NCBI RefSeq assembly: GCF_003346815.1 | Contig: NZ_CP031217.1 | Coordinates: 2,604,001 to 2,668,000, forward strand | Direction: 5' to 3' | Source: Halarcobacter bivalviorum | Lineage (GTDB): Bacteria; Campylobacterota; Campylobacteria; Campylobacterales; Arcobacteraceae | DNA length: 64,000 nt | Shown: positions 57,620-64,000 of the stretch, piece by piece | How positions within the stretch are numbered: position 1 is the stretch's first letter | Layout: the number at the start of each line of letters is the position of its first letter | Notes under the pieces: generated by a model | The model's database searches: none | What the model was told of the DNA's origin: nothing | What the model saw: the letters and a program-made list of their open reading frames with translations, nothing else | Made by a program: the position numbers and the translations under genes

Positions 57620-57697
57620 TTACTCTCTTTATGATAAATTTTCGCGATTATACTAAAAATTTGCTTAAATTTAGTCTTTTTTAATTTATGAATAAAA

Positions 57698-57746
57698 ATT
57701 CATAATCTATTCATAATCTATTCATTGCTTCTTGATAAATTTTCAT
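57698..57746 (+). promoter_or_regulatory. TTCAT direct repeats upstream of the ABC-oxidase operon
   Basis: TTCAT occurs at 57699, 57710 and 57721 (11-nt spacing, within ATTCATAATCT units) and again at 57742 (21 nt further). Tandem 11-nt repeats of this kind are typical binding sites for OmpR-family regulators. The same repeat stands before the response regulator gene at 63708. The set ends 22 nt before the first gene of the operon. Confidence 0.65.
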
Positions 57747-57768: not shown

Positions 57769-58848
57769 ATGACATACGCTTTTAAAGCTATAAAAGCAAA
57801 TAGACTCAAAACATCATTGATTATTCTAAGTCTTATCTTTTCTATTACTTCTATTTTTTTGATTACTTCTATTTCAAATGGAGTAATTTCTATGTACTCT
57901 TCAATGTTGAAAAGTGATGGAGATATTATTATCACTCAAAAAAATATCTCTGATACTTTTTTCTCTAATATTGATATTAATTTAATAGAAAAAATAAATA
58001 GTTTAGATGAAGTTATAAAAACTTCTGCACTAATTGTAGGGGCTTCAATGGTTGAAGATTTACCAATAGTTGCTGTTTATGGAGTAAGTGAAAATAGATT
58101 TAAAAACTATGAATTAGTAACTGGCAAATACCCTAAACAAGGAGAGGTTCTTCTTGGAAAATCTATTTATGAAAGTTTAAAAAATCATAATGAAATTCTA
58201 ATCTCAAATGAAAAATTTAGAGTATCAGGAGTATTTGAAAGTTCTATTGGCTTTGAAAATGGTGGTGCTGTATTAACAATAAGTGATGCAAGTAAGATTT
58301 TTAATAAAAGTGCTTCAATGATTATGGTTAATAGCAAAATTGATACAGATATAGAAAAGCTTGTAAACAAGATTAATATCTTTGATAAAAATATTGAAGC
58401 TAAATCAACAACTAATTTCGTTGATAACTATAACCAATTTAAAATAATCAAAACTTCATCAAATGTTATCTCATTTATCTCTTTTTGCATGGGACTTTTA
58501 ACTATTGCTTCAATTTTAAGTATCACAATTAATCAAAGAAAGAGTGAATTTGGAATTAAAAGAGCCCTTGGTATTTCTATGAATAAAATTGTTATTCAAA
58601 TTATCAATGAAGCTTTAATTCTTGGATTTTTTAGTTTCTTTATTGCCCTTGGTATTTCAAAATCTGTTTTATACTTTATAAAAAACAGCTCTTTTTTACA
58701 TGGTTATGTAAATGGTGAGATTTCATTAGAGATATCGGTTTTTATACTTTTCACAACACTTAGTATCTCTATTTTAGGTTCGATTTTTCCTGCATTAAAT
58801 GCTTCTAAAACTGACCCAATGATTTTAATCCAAGGAGATAAAATATGA
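57769..58848 (+). CDS. MacB/FtsX-type ABC transporter permease
   Basis: A 359-aa inner-membrane protein: N-terminal helix (about 13-38), a periplasmic MacB-type domain (about 40-230), then three helices (about 240-262, 283-305, 325-348) of the FtsX permease part ending NASKTDPMILIQGDKI, typical of MacB-like proteins. Such exporters move proteins or small compounds, or transmit force to periplasmic partners. It overlaps the ATPase gene by 4 nt. First gene of the seven-gene operon. Confidence 0.87.
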   Translation: MTYAFKAIKANRLKTSLIILSLIFSITSIFLITSISNGVISMYSSMLKSDGDIIITQKNISDTFFSNIDINLIEKINSLDEVIKTSALIVGASMVEDLPIVAVYGVSENRFKNYELVTGKYPKQGEVLLGKSIYESLKNHNEILISNEKFRVSGVFESSIGFENGGAVLTISDASKIFNKSASMIMVNSKIDTDIEKLVNKINIFDKNIEAKSTTNFVDNYNQFKIIKTSSNVISFISFCMGLLTIASILSITINQRKSEFGIKRALGISMNKIVIQIINEALILGFFSFFIALGISKSVLYFIKNSSFLHGYVNGEISLEISVFILFTTLSISILGSIFPALNASKTDPMILIQGDKI

Positions 58849-59465
58849 TAACTTTAAAAGAAGTTTCTAAAAAATATGATAAAGATTTTGCCTTAAAAGA
58901 TATAAATCTAAATATTAAAAAAGGCTCTTTTGTTGCTATTACAGGAGAGAGTGGGAGTGGTAAAACAACTCTTCTTTCTATTTTATCAACACTATTAAAA
59001 CCAAACTCTGGAGAAATCACTTTTGAAGATACAGAGTATAAAAGTATAAAAAATATGGATAAGTTTAGACAAGAGAATATTGGTTTTGTTTTTCAATTTC
59101 ACTATCTAATCAATTATCTAACAGTAAAAGAGAATATTCTACTTGCAAATGAAAAAGCAAGTACAGAAGAGATAAGAAAACTATTATCTCTTTTAGATAT
59201 CAATAACTTAATTAACTCATATCCAAATGAAATCTCAGGGGGTCAACGACAAAGAGTTGCTATTGCAAGAGCTTTAATAAACCATCCTAAAGTTATCTTT
59301 GCAGATGAGCCAACAGGAAACCTTGACTCAAAAAACTCTTTAAATGTATTTAATATTTTTAAAAAACTCTCTTCAAATGGAGTAACAATAGTTGTTGCAA
59401 CACATGATAAAGAGTTAGCAAAACTTGCTGATATAACATTGGAGGTAAAAGATGGACAACTTTAA
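58845..59465 (+). CDS. LolD/MacB-type ABC transporter ATPase
   Basis: A 206-aa ATP-binding subunit with Walker A GESGSGKTT (about 34-42), signature SGGQRQRVAIARAL (about 127-140), Walker B VIFADEPTGNLDS and the switch His in VVATHDKE. It belongs to the LolD/MacB/FtsE class. It pairs with the upstream permease. It overlaps the oxidase-like gene by 14 nt, so both are translated from one mRNA. Confidence 0.93.
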   Translation: MITLKEVSKKYDKDFALKDINLNIKKGSFVAITGESGSGKTTLLSILSTLLKPNSGEITFEDTEYKSIKNMDKFRQENIGFVFQFHYLINYLTVKENILLANEKASTEEIRKLLSLLDINNLINSYPNEISGGQRQRVAIARALINHPKVIFADEPTGNLDSKNSLNVFNIFKKLSSNGVTIVVATHDKELAKLADITLEVKDGQL

Positions 59466-61014
59466 TATTTTTATTGAAAAACAGTTTAGAATCTCTTTAC
59501 TGTTTTTCTTTTTAGGTCTATTTTTCGGTATTTTATACTCTGTAAATTTACTTGGTATTTTTATTGATTCAACAACACTAAATCCAGTAAATATTAGAAG
59601 TTTGCATATCTCACTTATGCTTTATGGTTTTATCCCACTTATGCTTTCATATTTACCTTTTTTACTTATAAATAAAGAAGTAGGTTCTTGTAAAGATGGA
59701 CTTTTTTACTTAAATCTATATACTATTTTTTGGTATATCTTTTTAATATTTATGATTTCTTCACTGCTTTTTGGAAATACAAGAGGTTTAGCTTTTTATG
59801 ATTTTCCCTATGAATTAAACTTTATTTTAAGTCTTGCGGGAGTTTTTTATATCATTGCTTTATATAAATTTATCAAGCAGTACGGAGTAAAACCTTTATG
59901 GGTTAAAGTCTCTTTATATATTGTATTAGTAGCTCCCCTTGCACTTTTAGTTCTTATGAATCCTACAATTGGGCAAGTTGAAAAAACAGTTACTGGACCA
60001 CATGGAGACAATACACTTGGAATGAGCTTTGCTTTAATTCCTATTTACTTTCTAATCATCAAACTTCTAAGCCAAAATGAGTTTAAAGCTAGATGGAATA
60101 TTCTTTGGATTACACCACTGTTTTTTTATATCATCTCAGTTCTTTATAGAAGTTTTATAGGAGAATTAACTTATAACCAAGAGTGGTTTTTCCAATACCT
60201 TACTTTACTTTATGTACCCCTTTTATATAGATGGTATAAAGATGCAAAGATAGAAAAGTATGCAAAACTTGCACTTCTTATTTCTATAGCTTCATTTCTT
60301 TTTGTAGATATTGAAGGAAATATTCTATTTATTCCAGAGATTAGATGGTTATTTCATAGAAATGATTTAATTGTAGCCCATGCTCATGTTGCTATGGGAA
60401 TCTCTGTTTTCTTTATGGTTATCTCTATGTTTGTTTCTCATATCAAAGAGCTTCAAACACTAAAATTTTATAGTTTTTATCTTTTTGGTCTTATAGGAAT
60501 TTTCACTGTTTTATCTCTTAGTGGTTTTGTTCAAGCAGGAGTGTTAAAAGCCTCTATTCATAACTTTTGGATAGCAAGAACTATCTTTGGAATATTTGCT
60601 TTTCTTTCAGTTTTAGCCTTTGTAAATATGAAGTTCAAACTTACAAACTTACAAAAGTATAACCTTTTTGGCTTTTTAAATGATGGTTTAGGAGGAGTAT
60701 TTTTAATCCTTCTTGCTAGTTTTATCTATCCAAGTTTAAACTTTAGTTTTGAAGGAAAATATGAATATATCGTTTTTGCTTTTGTAAGTATGACTGGACT
60801 TATTCACTTCTTAGCTTTAAAGTATAAAGAGTATGAATCAATTCTTACAAAATTAACTGTTTTTATTAGAGTTTTTATAAGTTCATTATTTTTCTCACTT
60901 TATACAGCAGGAACATTAGAAATTGTTGCACTATTTATATCAGCCTTTGATATTTCAATGGTGGTTTTTTACCTACTTTATTTTTATAAAAAGGAGCAGT
61001 TATGCAAAAATTAG
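59452..61014 (+). CDS. Divergent heme-copper-oxidase subunit I-like protein
   Basis: A 520-aa protein with about 12-13 membrane helices. RSLHISLMLYGFIPLML has His52 where helix II of these oxidases carries a haem ligand, and IVAHAHVAMG has His310 and His312, matching the HxH pair of helix X that binds both haems. His184 in GPHGDN may match the first CuB ligand, but no paired histidines are found in the following helix (about 215-235, WITPLFFYIISVLYRSF). So a haem-binding protein without a full CuB site is proposed. No subunit II or cytochrome c gene is nearby. The activity is unknown. Confidence 0.7.
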   Translation: MDNFNIFIEKQFRISLLFFFLGLFFGILYSVNLLGIFIDSTTLNPVNIRSLHISLMLYGFIPLMLSYLPFLLINKEVGSCKDGLFYLNLYTIFWYIFLIFMISSLLFGNTRGLAFYDFPYELNFILSLAGVFYIIALYKFIKQYGVKPLWVKVSLYIVLVAPLALLVLMNPTIGQVEKTVTGPHGDNTLGMSFALIPIYFLIIKLLSQNEFKARWNILWITPLFFYIISVLYRSFIGELTYNQEWFFQYLTLLYVPLLYRWYKDAKIEKYAKLALLISIASFLFVDIEGNILFIPEIRWLFHRNDLIVAHAHVAMGISVFFMVISMFVSHIKELQTLKFYSFYLFGLIGIFTVLSLSGFVQAGVLKASIHNFWIARTIFGIFAFLSVLAFVNMKFKLTNLQKYNLFGFLNDGLGGVFLILLASFIYPSLNFSFEGKYEYIVFAFVSMTGLIHFLALKYKEYESILTKLTVFIRVFISSLFFSLYTAGTLEIVALFISAFDISMVVFYLLYFYKKEQLCKN

Positions 61015-61976
61015 CCCTAGTATTTTTTATTGCTTTTGAGTTATGTTACTACTTACTTATAGCACAAACAGGTATTGTTGAGCATTTAGCCTCAAATATC
61101 TTTGTTATAGCCCCTCTTCCTATTGGAGGAGTTATTGGTTCAATATTAAGTTTTTATATTAAGACATCAAATAAAAATAAGATATTTTCATTTTTACTTC
61201 TACAATTAGCAGTTAGTTTTTTCTATCCAAATTTAAATGCCCTACTTCTATTTATACTTGGAATAAGTGTTGGGGCTTTAGCACCATTATTAATAAATGA
61301 GCTAAAAAAAGCTTCAAATATACAATTGGGTTTTGCCCTTGCAATTTCATATGCTTTAGGAACTTTTCTATTTACATATGAAGCTTCACAAAGAGGCTCA
61401 ATTGCAATTGCATTTACTATAATTGCTCTTGTTTCATCACTATTTATAAATCAAAAAGAGCATAAAGATTTAACAAGCAATAACTATTCATACTCACTAT
61501 TTGTGATGGTTTTATGGATTTTCCTTGACTCAACTTTATTTGAAACACTTTCAAGGGATTTAACTACTTCTATTTGGAGAGATGGTTTTACTTTAGAGAT
61601 AATTGTTTTTCATCTAATTGGAGTAGTAAGTGCATTTTATATCAAGATGGAAAAAACACAAAAAGAGCTTCTTATCTTAACTCTTTTTGCCCTTTCATAT
61701 CTATTTTATTTCCTACATGAAGGTTTTATTTTATCACTTGTTTATCCTTTTGTAATCTCTTTTTACAATGTAGTAATTCTTCAAACTATTGTAAAAAAAG
61801 ATTTAAAAACACTAGGTATTTACATGGTATTTATTGGATGGGCTGCATCAGGAGCTGGATTATTTGTAGCTTTAGAAAATTTAACCTATTTTGTTCCAAC
61901 TATATTTTTATTATGTTTAATCAAAATTGTAATAACACAACAAACACAAAAAAAGGAGTTACCATGGCTAAATTAA
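61002..61976 (+). CDS. MFS-like membrane protein
   Basis: A 324-aa protein with about 10-11 hydrophobic helices, starting LALVFFIAFELCYYLLIAQTG. The spacing and the GFALAISYALGTFLF and GWAASGAGLFVAL segments suggest a reduced MFS-like fold, but no signature is clear. It overlaps the oxidase-like gene by 13 nt and the YceI gene by 13 nt, so it is a firm member of the operon. Function unknown; it could be a transport or assembly factor for the oxidase-like protein. Confidence 0.65.
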   Translation: MQKLALVFFIAFELCYYLLIAQTGIVEHLASNIFVIAPLPIGGVIGSILSFYIKTSNKNKIFSFLLLQLAVSFFYPNLNALLLFILGISVGALAPLLINELKKASNIQLGFALAISYALGTFLFTYEASQRGSIAIAFTIIALVSSLFINQKEHKDLTSNNYSYSLFVMVLWIFLDSTLFETLSRDLTTSIWRDGFTLEIIVFHLIGVVSAFYIKMEKTQKELLILTLFALSYLFYFLHEGFILSLVYPFVISFYNVVILQTIVKKDLKTLGIYMVFIGWAASGAGLFVALENLTYFVPTIFLLCLIKIVITQQTQKKELPWLN

Positions 61977-62497
61977 TATTTACATTAATATTTGCAGCAC
62001 TTTTAAGTTCTGCAAATGCCCAAAATCTACAGTTTGTAGATGGAGAGATAAAAGCACATACTGAGGTTTTTGGAGATAAAAATATCAATCCATTTTCTAA
62101 AGATATTTCATCACACTTATCAATGAATAAGAGTATAGATTCATTAAAAGGGACTATCTCTTTAAGTACCTTTTCATTTCATAGTGATAATGAAAAAAGG
62201 GATTTACATATGTATGAGACTTTACACTCAAAAGCTTTTCCTCAAATCTCTTTTAGATTAAACTCTATAGAGAAACTAGATAATAGTTTTTTAATAAAAG
62301 GTTTTCTTACTCTAAATGGTTTAGAAAAAGAAGTTAGCTCAATAGCACAAATTAAAGATGAAAATAATCATCTAGTTTTAGATGGGAATTTTTCTATTAA
62401 CTTAACTGCATTTAATCTTGAACCACCAACAATGCTTTTCTTAACAGTTAGAGACCAAATAGATATCTCTTACCATTTAGATTATATTAAAGGATAA
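61964..62497 (+). CDS. YceI family periplasmic protein
   Basis: A 177-aa protein from the ATG at 61964 (AAAGGAG upstream) with signal peptide (1-19, SANA-Q). The YceI/lipocalin-like fold is indicated by SMNKSIDSLKGTISLSTFSFHSDNEKRDLHMYETLHSKAFPQISFRLNSIEKL, which carries the DxHM...F.i.F pattern. YceI proteins bind isoprenoid chains such as quinones. An extended upstream frame in the previous gene is rejected. In this operon it could carry a quinone or related lipid. Confidence 0.85.
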   Translation: MAKLIFTLIFAALLSSANAQNLQFVDGEIKAHTEVFGDKNINPFSKDISSHLSMNKSIDSLKGTISLSTFSFHSDNEKRDLHMYETLHSKAFPQISFRLNSIEKLDNSFLIKGFLTLNGLEKEVSSIAQIKDENNHLVLDGNFSINLTAFNLEPPTMLFLTVRDQIDISYHLDYIKG

Positions 62498-62501
62498 ATT
62501 T

Positions 62502-62951
62502 ATGAAAAAGATTATTCTATTTCTTTCTTTGGTACTTTGTGCTTTTTCACAAGAGTTAAGTATAAATGATAAGATTAATAATTTCTCTTTAGCTAATCAA
62601 TTTGATGAAAAAAAGACAATTGATTCAAAAGTAAATACAATTATCGTCTCTTTTGAAAAAGACACGGGAAAAGAAGTAAATGAATTCTTAGAGCAAAAAA
62701 CTTCAGGCTTTTTAAGAGAACATCATGCTGTTTTTATTGCAAATATTTCAGGAATGCCCATGATTATAACTAAAATGTTTGCCTTACCAAAAATGAAAAA
62801 CTATAAACATGAGATACTTTTAATTTATGATGAAAATGATGATAGATTTAAAGCTCAAGATGGAATGTCAACTCTTTATAGGCTTGAAAATGGTGTAATA
62901 AAAAGTATTGAGTTTATTACAAAAGATGATTTAGAGAAAGTTTTTCTATGA
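62502..62951 (+). CDS. Exported thioredoxin-fold-like protein without cysteines
   Basis: A 149-aa protein with signal peptide (1-16). LSINDKINNFSLANQFDEKKTIDSKVNTIIVSFEKD resembles the start of TlpA/YtfJ-like thioredoxin folds, but the mature part has no cysteine, so no thiol chemistry is expected. MPMIITKMFALPKMKNYKHEILLIYDEND follows. Assigned with low confidence; role unknown. It sits 4 nt after YceI and overlaps the metallophosphoesterase gene by 4 nt. Confidence 0.55.
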   Translation: MKKIILFLSLVLCAFSQELSINDKINNFSLANQFDEKKTIDSKVNTIIVSFEKDTGKEVNEFLEQKTSGFLREHHAVFIANISGMPMIITKMFALPKMKNYKHEILLIYDENDDRFKAQDGMSTLYRLENGVIKSIEFITKDDLEKVFL

Positions 62952-63667
62952 GACTTCCAGAACTTGAAATAAAAAATCTTAAAGTAAAAAGTGAGAATTT
63001 GCAGGGTTTGCAAATTCTTCACTTAAGTGATTTACATATAAACAAAAAAACAAAAGTAATGAATATAGAAAAACTTGTAGCTTTTTGTAATAGTTTAGAG
63101 TATGATTTTTTAGCTCTTACAGGAGATATTATAGATTGTAAAGTAGATAAAATAATACCTCAGCTTAAAGCTTTAAACTCTTTAAAAAAGGTATTTTATA
63201 TAAGTGGTAACCATGATCTGTTTTATGGAATAAAAGGATTAAAAGAGCTTCTGACAAATTTCACTTTTTTAGATAATAAAACCACTTTTATAAAGTACCA
63301 AAATAGAGATATTGCCCTTGCTGGGATAAGTGATAGATTCTCAAAATTTTTTAAAATAAAAAGAGAAGAAAAAAAAATTCTTAGCTTTTTAAAAAGTAAT
63401 GAAGACTCTATCTTACTTGCCCACCAACCAAAGGATTACTCTTTAGCAATAGCTTCAAATACAAAACTTTTTTTATGTGGACATACTCACGGAGGGCAAG
63501 TTTTTCCCTTTCACTACTTTGTAAGACTCTTTCAACCTTTTCTTGCTGGTATCTTCTATAAAAAAGATACTTGTATCTATGTAAATAGAGGATTAGGTAC
63601 TTGGGGGATTGATTTTAGATATAAAGCCAATAGCGAAATAACTCTTTTAAAATTAATAAATAATTAG
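62948..63667 (+). CDS. Soluble metallophosphoesterase
   Basis: A 239-aa enzyme of the calcineurin-like family. Metal-binding motifs: LSDLHINK (about 27-34), TGDIID, GNHDLFYG, and CGHTHGGQVFPF. It is a shorter relative of the 372-aa protein at 49350 that lacks the membrane part and Tat-like segment, so it may be cytoplasmic. Last gene of the operon; the response regulator begins 40 nt later. Confidence 0.86.
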   Translation: MRLPELEIKNLKVKSENLQGLQILHLSDLHINKKTKVMNIEKLVAFCNSLEYDFLALTGDIIDCKVDKIIPQLKALNSLKKVFYISGNHDLFYGIKGLKELLTNFTFLDNKTTFIKYQNRDIALAGISDRFSKFFKIKREEKKILSFLKSNEDSILLAHQPKDYSLAIASNTKLFLCGHTHGGQVFPFHYFVRLFQPFLAGIFYKKDTCIYVNRGLGTWGIDFRYKANSEITLLKLINN

Positions 63668-63668
63668 T

Positions 63669-63688
63669 ATTCATATTATATTCATATT
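63669..63688 (+). promoter_or_regulatory. TTCAT direct repeats upstream of the response regulator
   Basis: ATTCATATT occurs twice (63669-63677, 63680-63688), with TTCAT cores 11 nt apart. This matches the repeat at 57698-57725. It lies 20-39 nt before the ATG, where self-regulation by the encoded protein is plausible. Confidence 0.65.
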
Positions 63689-63707: not shown

Positions 63708-64000
63708 ATGAAAATATTAATTATAGAAGATGATGAAAAAATCGTAAACTTTTTGAAAAAAGGTCTTGAAGAAGAGTCTTATAGTGTTGACCACTCATTA
63801 AATGGAGATGAGGGTATTTATTTAGCTAGTGTAAATGATTATGATCTAATACTTCTTGATATTATGCTTCCTATTAAAGATGGAATTGAAGTGTGTAGAA
63901 CTCTTAGGTCAAACTCTATTAATACACCAATTATAATGCTTACTGCTAAAGACTCTATTGAAGATAAAATAAAGGGTTTAGATATTGGTGCAAATGATTA
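63708..64000 (+). CDS. OmpR-family response regulator, N-terminal part
   Basis: The frame is open to the end of the window. The first 97 residues show a receiver domain: ILIIEDDEKIVNFLKKGLEEESYSVD, phospho-acceptor Asp in YDLILLDIMLPIKDG (about residue 51), and IIMLTAKDSIEDKIKGLDIGAND. The acidic pair and Thr are intact. The opening and the IIMLTA block suggest a CopR/DccR-like regulator with a winged-helix output beyond the window. The partner kinase probably follows. Confidence 0.88.
   Translation, partial: MKILIIEDDEKIVNFLKKGLEEESYSVDHSLNGDEGIYLASVNDYDLILLDIMLPIKDGIEVCRTLRSNSINTPIIMLTAKDSIEDKIKGLDIGAND

Follow-up and report, generated by a model that had tools for sequence, protein, structure and literature searches.

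What a relative of the haem-copper oxidases does in one operon with an ABC transporter, a YceI-family lipocalin-like protein and a phosphoesterase is the question raised by a locus of Halarcobacter bivalviorum (Arcobacteraceae; host genome of 2.68 Mb). The seven genes, designated P1–P7, lie on the + strand at 57769–63667 of a 64,000-nt stretch of contig NZ_CP031217.1 (positions 2,604,001–2,668,000), referred to below as the window, and their coordinates were confirmed by reading of the open reading frames (ORFs) (Table 1). The six core genes are without a named system in the literature and libraries searched, and no paper naming the operon or an oxidase homologue devoid of the copper site (CuB) was found, subscription papers lying outside the search. 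The data presented here point to a probable role of the operon in protecting or repairing the cell envelope and indicate that its central membrane protein, P3, has kept the predicted haem ligands of the oxidases and lost the CuB histidines. The regulation and conservation of the operon are well supported; its chemistry we infer.

Table 1. Positions of the operon genes and adjoining elements in the window.
Feature	Position	Strand	Description
Promoter array	57688–57725	+	Inverted ATGAAT at 57688–57693, then TTCAT at 57699, 57710 and 57721; 11-nt spacing
P1	57769–58848	+	ABC permease with MacB_PCD and FtsX domains, LolC/E- or MacB-like, without fused ATPase
P2	58845–59465	+	LolD/FtsE-type ABC ATPase; 4-nt overlap with P1
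P3	59452–61014	+	Haem-copper-oxidase-superfamily membrane protein; 14-nt overlap with P2
P4	61002–61976	+	Compact MFS-fold membrane protein, 324 aa; 13-nt overlap with P3
P5	61964–62497	+	Periplasmic YceI-family lipocalin-like protein with signal peptide; 13-nt overlap with P4
P6	62502–62951	+	Small secreted protein without conserved Cys; 4-nt gap after P5
P7	62948–63667	+	Calcineurin-like metallophosphoesterase of the YaeI/LpxG kind; 4-nt overlap with P6
Second TTCAT-N6-TTCAT element	63670–63685	+	In the gap between P7 and the regulator gene; likely a separate regulator promoter
Response regulator gene	63708–64000	+	Runs past the window end; TIGR01387 CopR/CzcR 5.6e-76, under cut-off

The original prediction had described the set, from its letters, as one translational unit with gene overlaps of 4–14 nt. 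The positions and overlaps were correct once the YceI gene was begun at the signal-peptide ATG at 61964 instead of as the longer ORF from 61838. Given the overlapping and abutting ends, a translational unit is a reasonable reading, the single unit itself staying a prediction; inside the operon, neither promoter-like nor terminator-like sites were in excess.

Relatives of P3 were detected in 46 of 150 related genomes, in 34 of 298 genomes sampled across the phylum and at 22 loci of a separate genome collection. P1, P2 and P3 were kept together in all 42 long-flank loci checked, with P1–P2 directly or nearly directly before P3 wherever the neighbourhood was inspected, and P4–P5 were present in nearly all loci with enough length to show both. 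The P1–P2–P3 block was seen in Arcobacteraceae, Sulfurospirillum, Sulfurovum-like clades and one metagenome-assembled genome (MAG) of another phylum. The order P1–P7 was constant in Arcobacteraceae, but P6 was absent from a few, and in the Sulfurovum-like clades the genes were permuted yet clustered (P6-P1-P2-P3-P4-P5 or P4-P5-P1-P2-P3-P6). The P3 of the window and that of Malaciobacter halophilus were 99% identical. Judged from these comparisons, conservation of the block far above chance is well supported, and the cluster is kept across Campylobacterota, as the original prediction had demanded of related genomes; the genomes are related by descent, and neither the conservation nor the linkage counts reported here are independent.

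At locus L016, a short gene was found between P1 and P2, and at the GC-rich loci L083, L087 and L089 P1 or P2 was missed by the ORF caller, hidden behind longer shadow frames, an explanation directly checked for L083 among the three. An apparent P2–P3 fusion in the GC-rich genome G093 (a frame of 736–748 aa) was rejected, its N-terminal part being a shadow frame of the ATPase. The MAG from outside Campylobacterota (L021/G391) carried the order P6-P1-P2-P3-P4-YceI. P3 was found in 0 of 90 other genomes of the class of this MAG, and a 379-genome phylum sample gave one weak partial match, so P3 appears to belong essentially to Campylobacterota, with sporadic transfer or a mis-binned contig accounting for the rest. 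No plasmid carriage of P3 was found.

The P3 of the window scored 19.5 bits against the COX1 model PF00115, under the cut-off of 34.8, and the same model matched 15 of 17 members of the P3 family with a best value of 1.1e-9. Since the P3 profile gave chance matches only against the sequences of solved structures, a fold search was needed. The AlphaFold model of P3 (pLDDT 81.6) was matched by Foldseek to the cbb3 oxidase subunit CcoN (6.5e-7) and to NorB (4.7e-5) over nearly the full chain, with a TM-score of at most 0.58 over 455 columns, and hhalign of the P3 profile with CcoN of related genomes gave E 8e-4. In the CcoN alignment, where the region 'FHRND..AHAH' of P3 stands against 'AHFTDW..GHVH', H52 corresponds to the haem ligand of transmembrane helix 2 (TM2) and H310 and H312 to the HxH ligands of TM10, an arrangement also shared with NorB. 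The first of these histidines was conserved in 51 of 51 sequences and the other two in 52 of 52. By profile, modelled fold and predicted haem ligands, P3 belongs to the haem-copper oxidase superfamily.

Unlike CcoN and NorB, P3 lacks the two neighbouring histidines of TM7 in all 52 sequences, its TM6 motif reads GDN in place of GHN, with an invariant His two residues upstream, and no CcoO/CcoP or NorC genes accompany it. The position of the cbb3-type Tyr is variable among P3 sequences. With the three CuB/FeB histidines (one from TM6 and the TM7 HH) not in place, P3, as read from its sequence, stands outside the catalytic O2/NO-reducing set, and the haem ligands being kept with the TM7 pair absent, a role as terminal oxidase is very unlikely. 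The description of P3 as haem-copper-oxidase-like consequently survives for fold and haem ligands and fails in its catalytic meaning. The invariant residues of P3 include H184, D186, R233, Y241, E244 and H302, the first five of which are unchanged in 52 sequences down to about 44–50% identity; together, the six could form an alternative site. P3 represents a natural haem-copper oxidase fold without the copper site, in which alternative uses of the fold are directly testable.

The promoter array before P1 consists of TTCAT repeats. Direct repeats with an 11-nt period are typical of OmpR/PhoB-family binding, and the array is probably the binding site, putative as it is, of the OmpR/PhoB-family regulator encoded after the operon. 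Every inspected Arcobacteraceae locus, L009 and Sulfurospirillum had a recognisable array before P1. An exact genome-wide search for TTCAT-N6-TTCAT-N6-TTCAT gave matches in 16 of 46 genomes, with at least 27 places listed as opposed to 6 in total for the reversed control pattern; a search with two mismatches was abandoned as too loose (57 matches in the own genome versus 30 for the control). Outside the operon, the array was located mainly before the transporter genes given below, before CptA in the own genome, G006 and G014 and before an LtaS-like gene followed by EptA in G002, G011 and G014. A weight matrix trained on the exact-array sites, which were almost exclusively operon promoters, detected strong sites (score 24–35) before or within the EptA operon in G002, G011, G014 and G088. 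At 16 control loci, 15 from operon-less or other-family genomes and one from G139, in which EptA is unlinked, no site before EptA scored above 4, and reversed-sequence controls reached 8.7. The triple array was also observed before a Na-dependent transporter, NSS-type by eye (L159/G010, L167/G006 and L168/G015; Malaciobacter-like), and before an ABC transporter operon (L162/G005 and L164/G008), G005 being a genome without the seven-gene operon.

In the own genome, the regulator gene is followed by a kinase gene at about genome position 2668366, a gene for an HD-domain protein and EptA (647 bits, cut-off 500), the last about 3 kb from the regulator. Regulator and kinase came after the operon in the Arcobacteraceae loci with enough flank, separated from it by 3 kb at L003. 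Of the 41 Arcobacteraceae genomes with the operon, 40 had an ortholog of the regulator at 75% identity or above, G057 being the odd one out with 62%; such an ortholog was found in no Arcobacteraceae genome without the operon. A two-repeat TTCAT element also precedes the regulator in L002, L003, L097 and L099, and this shorter array suggests separate autoregulation. The best model for the regulator was CopR/CzcR with 255 bits; PmrA gave 179 bits, under its cut-off of 330, and the regulator does not qualify as a PmrA ortholog.

In Sulfurospirillum (L010, L013, L014, L015, L022 and L023), the kinase after P7 is shortened to about 225–255 aa, and in L010 and L014 it retains TM-HAMP-HisKA without the ATPase domain. 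The shortened kinase has no regulator alongside, though the TTCAT array persists.

The distance of EptA from the operon or the regulator was about 5 kb or less in 13 of 33 Arcobacteraceae genomes bearing both the operon and EptA (G000, G006, G010, G015, G023, G027, G029, G040, G043, G053, G055, G057 and G063), which span five genera; random placement in a 2.8-Mb genome would give about 0.3, an estimate that ignores kinship. At L003, EptA and DgkA lie between P7 and the regulator, DgkA or PAP2 genes stand beside the operon in L019 as well as L003, and an LtaS-like gene precedes P1 in L101. G049 and G139 have their closest regulator homologue immediately next to EptA, at a distance from any operon. 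Diacylglycerol is what remains after EptA and LtaS-type enzymes have taken the head groups of phospholipids, a reaction that fits the DgkA neighbour. One report describes mcr genes as likewise linked to dgkA or PAP2 (PMC7559476). As in PmrAB-EptA, an OmpR-family two-component system is thus linked to a lipid A phosphoethanolamine transferase, and the putative array and the neighbourhood include EptA, CptA and DgkA. The operon differs from PmrAB-EptA in that its regulator is nearer CopR/HprR by score and its main target is the seven-gene operon. Lipid-peroxide defence and lipid A modification are usually studied apart, and the locus suggests one regulator for both in Campylobacterota.

The partner proteins of P3 were assigned to varying depth. 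P1 matched MacB_PCD (PF12704, 2.3e-15) and FtsX (PF02687, 1.8e-14) and P2 the ABC ATPase family (PF00005, 1.1e-37), with LolD (TIGR02211, 3.9e-59, under the model cut-off) as the top NCBIfam model. They resemble LolCDE and MacAB in pairing an FtsX/MacB_PCD permease with a LolD-type ATPase and differ from them in having a single permease gene and no MacA, outer-membrane partner or LolA/B. The predicted MacB-type exporter is therefore borne out in its domains, whereas the missing MacA and the ATPase nearest LolD/FtsE models mean that drug export is not implied. P4 matched no Pfam or NCBIfam family, Pfam MFS included; its AlphaFold model (pLDDT 87.3) gave 72 Foldseek matches below 1e-3, and the 50 listed were all MFS transporters, in line with its earlier description as MFS-like. 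P5 is a YceI protein as proposed (PF04264, 1.5e-14), its profile matching polyisoprenoid-binding proteins and, at 3e-11, the solved YceI of E. coli.

P6 had been called a cysteine-less thioredoxin-fold-like protein. No Cys was conserved in the mature protein in the alignment, and the likeness to thioredoxin or YtfJ is one of appearance alone: no match was obtained in Pfam and PDB profiles, and the hhalign value with E. coli YtfJ (E 0.04, versus 0.08–0.8 for shuffles) was not accepted. P7 was assigned as a phosphoesterase by PF00149 (9.5e-12), with YaeI (3.9e-28) and LpxG (4.4e-23) of NCBIfam both under cut-off. In Sulfurovum-like loci, the cluster contains, in place of P7, a metallo-beta-lactamase-fold homologue of NAPE-PLD, which matched the solved human NAPE-PLD (4qn9) with E 1.1e-39 over residues 6–284. 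A lipid phosphodiesterase position thus seems to be filled by either of two unrelated enzymes, which may have a common substrate.

The closest parallel for the P3–P5 pair is LcoA-BcnA of Burkholderia, in which a two-haem membrane cytochrome b561 and a YceI lipocalin restrain the peroxidation of lipids during stress from polymyxin and norfloxacin (PMC9113575). Both systems pair a gene for a two-haem-type membrane protein with one for a secreted YceI protein, and the operon was likened to LcoA-BcnA also because the latter is tied to polymyxin and oxidative envelope stress. They differ in that the membrane partner here comes from the haem-copper oxidase superfamily, not from b561, and in the additional ABC, MFS-fold, P6 and phosphoesterase genes and the own two-component system. 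A secreted YceI-family protein is present without an adjacent cytochrome b561; b561-like genes were noticed by eye near the operon only in some genomes (L005, L098 and L101). The likeness is an analogy, not membership.

The preferred reading, a tentative one held at somewhat less than an even chance, is that a PmrAB-like regulon for lipid modification has the operon as its envelope-damage arm, and that the CuB-less haem protein and YceI would act like LcoA-BcnA together with the ABC unit and the phosphoesterase. By analogy, P3 would be a two-haem b membrane cytochrome taking electrons from (mena)quinol and passing them to an isoprenoid, such as a quinone, bound to the periplasmic YceI, which would quench lipid radicals or peroxides arising under antimicrobial or oxidative attack. 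The P1–P2 unit, with P4 and P6, might extract damaged or carrier lipid or move it between the membrane and the lipocalin, and P7 or the NAPE-PLD-like enzyme might cleave a phosphate-bearing lipid product for recycling. Every step from haem binding by P3 onward is conditional. A more far-reaching proposal is rather doubtful: that a clade of haem-copper oxidases lost CuB and left respiration for transporter–lipocalin repair or detoxification of envelope lipids, with H184/D186/E244 replacing CuB and quinol electrons flowing to YceI. Of the two functions that the original prediction had suggested, envelope stress is backed by the dedicated two-component system, the common promoter array and the linkage to EptA, CptA, LtaS-like and DgkA genes. 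Membrane redox is plausible because both haem-ligand sets are kept in P3, though not in the oxidase sense, the CuB histidines being gone.

Several observations weigh against the envelope-damage arm. The regulator and kinase score best with the metal-responsive CopR/CopS subfamilies, above PmrA/PmrB, and the Sulfurovum-like clades have neither the TTCAT array nor an orthologous regulator. EptA is not a universal co-member, being remote and without the array in most Aliarcobacter-type genomes (g11); in most of these genomes and in the Sulfurovum-like clades the link to EptA is missing or was not seen. LcoA-BcnA is dispensable under microaerophilia (PMC9113575), and many of the bacteria considered here are microaerophilic or anaerobic. 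The kinship of the genomes, which deprives the linkage counts of independence, counts on the same side.

An explanation by lipid trafficking without redox is unlikely, yet of the alternatives it has the most in its favour. The LolCDE/MacB-type P1–P2, with P4, P5 and P6, would move phospholipid, diacylglycerol or a prenyl carrier freed by EptA/LtaS-type transferases, P3 would be a structural haem protein or sensor, and the phosphoesterase would complete recycling. In agreement with it, the regulon partners use up phospholipids with diacylglycerol as the residue, L003 and L019 carry DgkA or PAP2 next to the operon, the phosphoesterase position is kept through replacement by the NAPE-PLD homologue and the ATPase is LolD/FtsE-like; left unexplained is why every row with data has the haem-ligand histidines of P3 unchanged. 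An active NO, superoxide or peroxide reductase, with a non-haem site rebuilt from H184/D186/E244 and the other genes assembling or supplying P3, is improbable. The invariance of H184, D186, R233, Y241 and E244, the fold near NorB as well as CcoN and an MFS-fold partner that could import metal would suit it; 0 of 52 sequences with the TM7 His pair, the variable Tyr position, the missing CcoO/CcoP or NorC partner and a context of lipid modification, not respiration, speak against it. Even less probable is a metal-stress operon, in which the CopRS-like system would sense copper, silver or zinc and the ABC and MFS units would export it. The best scores of regulator and kinase (CopR/CzcR and CopS/CzcS models) and the NosL-like proteins encoded beside one operon copy (L008) point that way, but the CopR/CopS scores fall under the curated cut-offs, the operon and the shared-array gene set contain neither a P-type ATPase nor CusCBA or a multicopper oxidase, and the array targets are mostly lipid transferases.

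Some further features were noted in the flanks of operon copies. The region L008:1606-6177 encodes, beside the NosL-like proteins (recognised by eye), a second ABC permease and ATPase of similar type. In Sulfurospirillum cavolei (L010:12569-13009), a CRISPR-like array of seven repeats of GTTTAAATACAAATCTTGTGTCGGTTCGAG with a period of 64–67 nt starts just after the operon, adjoining the cut-short kinase gene. Three loci of Sulfurovum-like genomes (L018:6086-7780, L020:3-1649 and L091:3481-5253) encode, in the vicinity of the operon, a large secreted protein marked by the motif 'LTAWNDLGMHCMDG..FSVFSILPPYNNLHAQ'.

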